The position numbers and the translations under genes were made by a program. Below, in pieces: positions 25,433 to 26,396 of a stretch of 64,000 nucleotides of DNA. Position 1 is the stretch's first letter, and every line of letters starts with the position of its first letter. Origin of the DNA: Bdellovibrio bacteriovorus. Its GTDB lineage: Bacteria; Bdellovibrionota; Bdellovibrionia; Bdellovibrionales; Bdellovibrionaceae. The stretch lies in NCBI RefSeq assembly GCF_001592745.1, contig NZ_LUKD01000001.1, forward strand, positions 751,384-815,383, given 5' to 3'. Below the pieces are notes generated by a model that had not been told where the DNA came from, searched no databases, and was given only the letters and a program-made list of their open reading frames with translations.

Positions 25433-26365
25433 ATGAAAAAACGCGAATGGCTTATAGTGATTCTTCCTTTGCTCGCAACCTGGCTCGTGGACCGTGTCAC
25501 GAAAATCTGGGCGACAGGAATCACGCAGCTAAAATCTTTTGGTCCGGTTCACTTTGTTTTGCATCACAATCACGGCGCGATGCTGGGATTGTTTTCAGAT
25601 TTACCGTCAGTACTAAGAATCGTGTCTCTTTCTACGGGTGGAGCTTTCCTTCTTTGCACCTATGCTTTGATTCAATACCTTCTGCCGATCAAATCCTTAA
25701 CTTTGCGAAGCGGTCTTTCTATTCTTATTGGCGGGATCATTGGCAACGTGACCGATCGGATTATCTGGGGTTATGTCGTGGATTTCATTGTCCTGGGCAC
25801 GCCTTCTCTTTCCAGCCCGGCTTTCAACTTAGCGGATGCATTGCAATGGCTGGGTTATGCGCTGATCGTATATGCGATCATTCGCGAGGGTGAACTTCTG
25901 TGGCCCGAAAACAATGTTCGTAAGCAATACTGGGTGAACATGCCATTTCAGTTGAAGTACTGCTTCATTCTGATGGCCGTTGGTCTAAGCCTGACTTTGA
26001 TTTGCTTGGTGTTTTCGTACACGTATATGCGAGTGACGATTCAAGAGCTGGTGGGGAATAACGCTTTCTTATTGAATAAGTTTCTGGTTCCTTACGTCAT
26101 CACTTTTATAATTATCTGTATCGCCTTTTGCGCGATATTGTTTGCGGTGGGACGTTTGATCTCTCATCGAATCGCCGGCCCACTCTATGCCTTTGAGCGT
26201 TTTTTAAAGACTTCTTTGGAAGGAACATCGTCGCCTCTTAAACTTCGAGCCGGAGATGAGTTTAAACATCTGGAAGAACTGGCCGAACAAATCAATGAGC
26301 GGCTAAATCAAATTAAAAAAGAGCGCACCGTCAACGTCATCGAATACAAAGAAGATGAAAACTAA
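25433..26365 (+). CDS. Signal peptidase II fused to a transmembrane HAMP module
   Basis: Residues 1-155 form a complete lipoprotein signal peptidase: four membrane helices with GNVTDR (104-109), VVDF (catalytic Asp117) and FNLADA (catalytic Asp135). Normal LspA ends near residue 165, but here the frame continues with two more membrane helices (about 177-198 and 218-240) and a HAMP-like linker (about 241-292, with IAGPLYAFE and GDEF). The total is 310 residues. HAMP domains normally pass signals across the membrane in sensor kinases and chemoreceptors. No output domain follows. LspA is normally the sole maturation peptidase for lipoproteins; whether this is the only copy is unknown. A strong terminator follows. 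Confidence 0.85.
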   Translation: MKKREWLIVILPLLATWLVDRVTKIWATGITQLKSFGPVHFVLHHNHGAMLGLFSDLPSVLRIVSLSTGGAFLLCTYALIQYLLPIKSLTLRSGLSILIGGIIGNVTDRIIWGYVVDFIVLGTPSLSSPAFNLADALQWLGYALIVYAIIREGELLWPENNVRKQYWVNMPFQLKYCFILMAVGLSLTLICLVFSYTYMRVTIQELVGNNAFLLNKFLVPYVITFIIICIAFCAILFAVGRLISHRIAGPLYAFERFLKTSLEGTSSPLKLRAGDEFKHLEELAEQINERLNQIKKERTVNVIEYKEDEN

Positions 26366-26366
26366 A

Positions 26367-26396
26367 AAAAAGGGAATCTGTGAAGATTCCCTTTTT
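26367..26396. terminator. Bidirectional terminator
   Basis: A perfect 13-bp stem (26367-26379 with 26384-26396) has a 4-base loop and A/T tracts at both ends. It separates the LspA-HAMP gene from the convergent chemoreceptor gene. Confidence 0.92.

Follow-up and report, generated by a model that had tools for sequence, protein, structure and literature searches.

The window, i.e. the whole 64,000-nucleotide stretch of Bdellovibrio bacteriovorus DNA analyzed here, contains on its forward strand a single ORF of 310 amino acids (25433..26365, ATG to TAA), the product of which joins a signal peptidase II (LspA) to two further transmembrane helices and a HAMP-like module. Its neighbors are, as we take them to be from reading the sequences, dacB, an MCP gene, an exonuclease gene and mot genes. 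Downstream, between two convergent genes, lies a perfect inverted repeat bordered by runs of A and of T (26367..26396), which was read by eye without a program score and is a probable two-way terminator. The signal peptidase II domain comprises residues 1-160 (25433..25912) and includes the codons of the catalytic residues Asp117 (25781..25783) and Asp135 (25835..25837). A linker (25901..25951), with W157 conserved in 77/83, R163 in 82/83 and Q173 in 83/83 distinct fusions, leads to the fifth (approximately residues 170-200; 25940..26032) and the sixth transmembrane helix (approximately 216-240; 26078..26152), whose limits, derived from an AF2 model and a tail alignment, are approximate. The HAMP-like module (approximately residues 241-293; 26153..26311), recognized by alignment and profile comparison, reads SHRIAGP...LRAGDE...LE. 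All these coding features lie on the forward strand.

The identity of the N-terminal part was determined by profile, conserved residues and fold. Residues 14-150 match Pfam Peptidase_A8 (PF01252) with 80.5 bits against a cut-off of 25, and the protein has 14/14 of the residues rated highly conserved in S. aureus LspA, including Asp117 and Asp135, according to the list in PMC6952399. An AF2 monomer model obtained from 21 input sequences (mean pLDDT 73, pTM 0.52) was compared with known structures, and the LspA structures 5dir, 6ryo and 6ryp ranked at the top in both Foldseek and VIA-align (in the latter Z 15.7, rmsd 3.5, 141 aligned). On these three grounds the window protein is predicted to belong to signal peptidase II. 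With the known enzymes (PF01252, family A8; 6ryo from S. aureus, 5dir from P. aeruginosa) it has in common the fold, the 14 residues, the Asp pair and the first four helices, and it differs from them in the addition of two helices and the HAMP-like module. The complete LspA and the two extra helices read by the original prediction from the letters alone were therefore both recovered, the model having helices at 170-208, 211-262 and 279-302 C-terminal to the LspA part.

The module is called HAMP-like because the Pfam gathering score was not reached: neither the window protein nor its tail by itself gave a HAMP match (PF00672), and in the Pfam scan of stand-alone tails HAMP appeared sub-threshold in 2/4. 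A profile built from 8 fusion tails and 16 stand-alone tails (24 in all) was, however, aligned by hhalign to 12 HAMP domains of the same genome at 95.6 % probability (E 1.2e-8, 53/53 columns), which bears out the HAMP-like linker proposed at the outset. The likeness to HAMP consists of this 53-column alignment, the position after a transmembrane helix and the GP and DE-like motifs, whereas the tail differs in staying below the Pfam threshold, in being fused to a protease, in having no output domain and in its strongly fixed SHRxxGP and LRxxD motif. VIA-align matches to residues 168-247 had Z 6-8 and were for the most part channels and receptors, which carries no weight for helix pairs; the HAMP protein NarQ (5jgp) stood in row 29 (Z 6.5, 126 aligned, 168-298), tied with channels and receptors. 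The tail is present in every close relative carrying the fusion gene, which settles the conservation check suggested earlier and indicates that its attachment is not due to chance. Moreover, 2TM-HAMP proteins that stand alone, about 140-200 aa long and with the same tail but no LspA part, occur in Bdellovibrionota, also where the fusion is missing; the tail is therefore a module in its own right. An invariant Gln before the first tail helix is common to both forms. Both termini of LspA are cytoplasmic, so that after two extra helices the HAMP-like module would again be on the cytoplasmic side; dimerisation or gating of the enzyme is its probable role, as a natural guess.

As the original prediction stated, no output domain follows the module in the 310-aa protein, which ends approximately 17 residues beyond it. 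Longer relatives were considered as possible carriers of such a domain, and this was ruled out. In genus g132 the fusion ORF (652-657 aa; L060 2130-4094 (-), L061 2963-4921 (+), L062 264-2237 (+)) continues in frame as a porin-like protein bearing a CLTCH motif, for which L068 and L069 have a gene of its own downstream, and in L063 (2921-4378 (-)) the fusion has an extra C-terminal AhpC/TSA (peroxiredoxin-like) domain; none of these is a signaling output.

The possibility that the fusion is the sole LspA of its genome was rejected, as a separate housekeeping lspA was found at G000:C1:902315, scoring 136.6 bits vs 83.2 for the fused copy. The short lspA genes of the relatives L304, L308 and L312 presumably stand in an ileS-lspA-lgt-like setting, the names having been assigned by reading. 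A second lspA doing all the processing, or a tail missing from close relatives, had been named in advance as evidence against the original prediction; a housekeeping lspA does exist, which makes it unlikely that the fused gene encodes the general enzyme, but relatives do not lack the tail. The fusion was detected in 56/59 relatives. Within the phylum sample, to which the distribution counts are confined (98 genomes of the window's order/class and 192 others), it occurs beside a housekeeping LspA in 93/98 of the former and in about 50 of the latter (judged by eye, best E below 1e-18). In a tree of 67 LspA domains, all 36 fusions stood on one side of a 100/100 branch and 31 unfused domains on the other, so that the fusion appears as an old second LspA forming a single clade. 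Further tail-less LspAs outside this clade were observed in G258 and G285 (L305 2043-2744 (+), L311 1718-2341 (-)), and that of G285 adjoins an AFQNC precursor.

Residue counts refer to 83 distinct sequences, which remained of the 99 fusion ORFs once duplicates had been removed. In the LspA part, D20, K24, D108 and N132 are retained in 83/83, and N46, N105 and the catalytic D117 and D135 in 82/83 each; in the tail, Q173, G249 and D275 are found in 83/83 and R163 and R272 in 82/83. Judged by these retained residues, the fused LspA looks active. The presence of a HAMP-like module with no output domain and the existence of stand-alone 2TM-HAMP relatives would suit a receptor that has lost its output domain and whose LspA part was repurposed for binding. 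However, each catalytic Asp is kept in 82/83 fusions and the tail is conserved within a single old clade (100/100), so this reading can practically be dismissed, and with it the earlier suggestion of a remnant of a fused receptor.

The fusions differ sharply from 20 housekeeping copies in their commonest residue at six positions of the window protein, with M for A at 50, L for F at 51, I for A at 102, V for Y at 106, Q for I at 138 and W for V at 139. Positions 50-51 belong to the extracellular loop by which S. aureus LspA clamps globomycin, Trp57 being the clamping residue (PMC6952399), and positions 102, 106, 138 and 139 flank conserved active-site motifs. These residues may set the specificity of the fused enzyme. 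The residue equivalent to Trp57 is Phe in 17/20 housekeeping copies and Leu in 61/83 fusions, which would suit a spare LspA that makes the cell resistant to antibiotics aimed at LspA, e.g. globomycin or myxovirescin. Antibiotic producers carry extra lspA genes (PMC8689077), and the paralogues of Myxococcus xanthus and of a globomycin producer are, like the fusion, additional to a housekeeping copy. The extra lspA pair of M. xanthus is, however, located in an antibiotic gene cluster, with no tail mentioned in the passage on it (PMC8689077), whereas the fusion is near no such cluster, and no biosynthetic genes were recognized among its neighbors. Moreover, the fusion is nearly universal in the order, and resistance leaves the lipoboxes of its partners, described below, unexplained. 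A role in resistance is therefore very improbable.

The neighbors of divergent fusions provide an indication of what the fused enzyme may process. The canonical lipobox is [LVI][ASTVI][GAS]C. By consensus the residue before the Cys is G, A or S (PMC6952399 and PMC8689077). In a lipoprotein-signal scan these neighbors were found to carry YQNC, FQNC, FNQC, YNQC, LQNC, FTHC, YTHC and FTQC. The linked precursors thus have an abnormal lipobox, [FY]-[QNT]-[NQH]-C vs L-A-G-C, departing from the canonical form at -1, where N, Q or H replaces the consensus G, A or S, and at -2, and they are candidate substrates of the fused LspA. A strict scan was applied, for which a signal peptide (called by in-house rules, not SignalP) had to close with [FYLWIVM][QNTH][NQH]C and lie at a distance of <=3 kb from the fusion. 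A precursor was present at 15/32 distant fusion loci (167 kb), and 17/32 were without a strict match; L071 has YQNC yet failed the strict scan and is outside the 15/32. No match was found in the control, which consisted of two genomes only (400 kb of G092, with fusion, and 400 kb of G065, without fusion), and the window's own genome gave 4 matches in 864 kb. It was then predicted in writing, before 20 untouched loci (108.5 kb) were fetched as a hold-out, that about half of them would have a precursor. A strict precursor was present at 14/20 of them and absent from 6/20. The 14 are not independent events, as many come from related genera and are alike, and such genera enter the counts more than once. 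The partners of the exploratory set alone make up at least 9 families with no similarity outside the signal region, and CxxCH proteins are among the partners at distant fusion loci. An aromatic-x-Asn motif with no Cys was also seen at the end of the hydrophobic segment of some fusion neighbors, namely AFQN/FTDV (L064 4043-5470 (+)), VFQN/FTTV (L091 1-2813 (-)) and IFQN/M (L073 119-3172 (+)), where FQN is followed by F or M. The 20-locus hold-out contained two matches to this non-Cys motif, in short frames and judged to be chance, and lent it no support.

In one partner family the lipobox covaries with linkage to the fusion. This partner has 229 aa and matches no Pfam family; a search of 40 genomes recovered it in 13, at 15 places. 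In 14/15 homologues the signal peptide was readable, and L331, with no readable start, was left out. The seven homologues beside the fusion carry FTHC, FNHC, FTHC, FNQC, FTQC, FNQC and FNQC, those in five genomes without the fusion (A4 profile check) carry FISC, LMSC, TVSC, LTSC and VVSC, and one located away from the fusion in a fusion genome carries LASC. In G274, the copy beside the fusion has FNQC and a second copy elsewhere has LLSC. Q or H at -1 was therefore observed in 7/7 linked homologues and a canonical lipobox in 7/7 unlinked ones, a covariation that may reflect few events. Lipobox residues -1 to -3 are lost when the signal peptide is removed and hence matter only to secretion, Lgt or LspA, so that covariation at these positions points to Lgt or LspA and not to sorting of the mature protein. 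This evidence also bears on the proposal of the original prediction that the HAMP module senses the state of the envelope and tunes lipoprotein maturation, when this is combined with a general, redundant LspA. The coexistence of housekeeping and fused LspA and the confirmed HAMP-like module are in line with it, but it predicts neither the atypical lipoboxes next door nor their covariation, and the periplasmic loop between the two extra helices is short, with no obvious sensor domain. Taken as a whole, this reading seems improbable.

In the window's own order the usual fusion neighbors are dacB and the exonuclease, and no atypical-lipobox precursor was found beside the fusion at any of 16 loci in the strict scan; here the argument for a link rests on co-occurrence, orthology and counts. 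The pattern [FY]QNC after a hydrophobic stretch was counted per genome against a reversed-pattern control. In the 98 order/class genomes it occurred 1086 times vs 186 in the control (mean 11.1 vs 1.9) and exceeded the control in 94, and in the other 192 genomes 377 times vs 300. Nearly all genomes of the order have both the fusion and the motif. No motif excess was found in the small genomes G260 and G282, which have the fusion. Seven order genomes gave no fusion match. In two of them, G202 and G241 (1.2-1.3 Mb), dacB is inside the contig and the fusion is truly absent; neither has an [FY]QNC precursor, their single pattern matches not being signal peptides. The other five, which have the motif, were considered as a refutation and set aside: in G010 and G258 dacB is missing as well, and in G036, G285 and G056 the syntenic locus runs off the contig, which is assembly evidence, not proof (synteny matches were read for 30/41 places, those with DNA). 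The window's genome has the pattern at 10 places, 7 times in a true N-terminal signal peptide and 3 times outside one; beside the signal-peptide places there are two further [FY]QNC ORFs, and an FTNC subtilase is also present. At two places the precursors are paired in tandem (L172 559-1575 and 1594-2301 (-); L180 410-1423 and 1398-2573 (+)), and 2/9 scanned proteins of this type are cytochrome c-like, which recalls the CxxCH partners of the distant loci.

Two Lgt genes were found in 11/12 genomes tested, with or without the fusion (in the window's genome at G000:C8:196776 and G000:C1:910758), and one only in the reduced genome G202; Lgt could therefore take part in the handling of atypical lipoboxes. 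In Leptospira, Asn and other large residues are tolerated at -1, and an adaptation of Lgt and Lsp has been proposed (PMC4758666), so that a loose lipobox as such is already known. Both observations would agree with a housekeeping LspA that processes, or a second Lgt that recognizes, the atypical lipoboxes, the fusion being linked for another reason, e.g. as a chaperone. However, G065 and G112, which lack the fusion, keep two Lgt genes and show no motif excess, and the fused enzyme retains a complete active site. We consider this explanation quite improbable. Leptospira has one loosened enzyme (PMC4758666), whereas the fusion is a separate paralogue with linked cognate precursors.

The fusion is probably a specialized second signal peptidase II for a second lipobox, its cleavage activity being predicted from sequence. 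The housekeeping LspA would process the ordinary L-A-G-C lipoproteins, and the fused LspA, with its catalytic machinery kept and its pocket changed, would cleave precursors with [FY]-[QNT]-[NQH]-C, for the most part [FY]-Q-N-C within the window's order. Its substrate would be the neighboring precursor in distant lineages and several scattered precursors in Bdellovibrionales, including c-type cytochrome-like proteins. These precursors would be lipidated, and would be cleaved exclusively by the fused enzyme, the altered pocket would be the cause of the preference, and the tail may have a part in the process. That the peptidase reads aromatic-x-Asn itself, also processing non-lipoproteins under cytoplasmic HAMP control, is unlikely. 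Exosortase and PEP-CTERM are an enzyme-substrate sorting pair known from linkage and co-occurrence with a motif; they are likewise a case of a dedicated processing enzyme, with C-terminal sorting there and an N-terminal lipobox for the fusion. In the open-access literature, a scope outside which most subscription papers fall, no description of an LspA-HAMP fusion, in agreement with the original prediction, or of an FQNC lipobox was found; nor was one of a separate LspA paralogue with linked precursors in open-access literature.

LspA is usually seen as a single housekeeping enzyme with a single lipobox. If the proposed specialization is true, a cell would have two streams of lipoproteins, one of them defined by the lipobox of the LspA paralogue, and predictors based on the lipobox may overlook this class of lipoproteins in predatory bacteria. 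The paralogue would also be a naturally occurring LspA of altered specificity, which is of interest for LspA inhibitors, and the cytoplasmic HAMP-like module would be a possible control point of lipoprotein maturation. The second-lipobox reading is directly testable in Bdellovibrio.

Some further arrangements of tail and HAMP genes were observed. In G029 a stand-alone tail gene is located directly 3' of the fusion (L098 2952-3461 (-) and 3483-4478 (-)). In many genomes of family f18, the housekeeping lspA has a stand-alone 2TM-HAMP gene at a distance of approximately 13-25 kb, an observation resting on L320 together with G065, G097, G105, G112, G118, G206, G274 and G199. The window's genome also contains, at G000:C1:924927-928133, an 1848-aa frame with about 12 consecutive HAMP domains (L124-L134, L139, L141).
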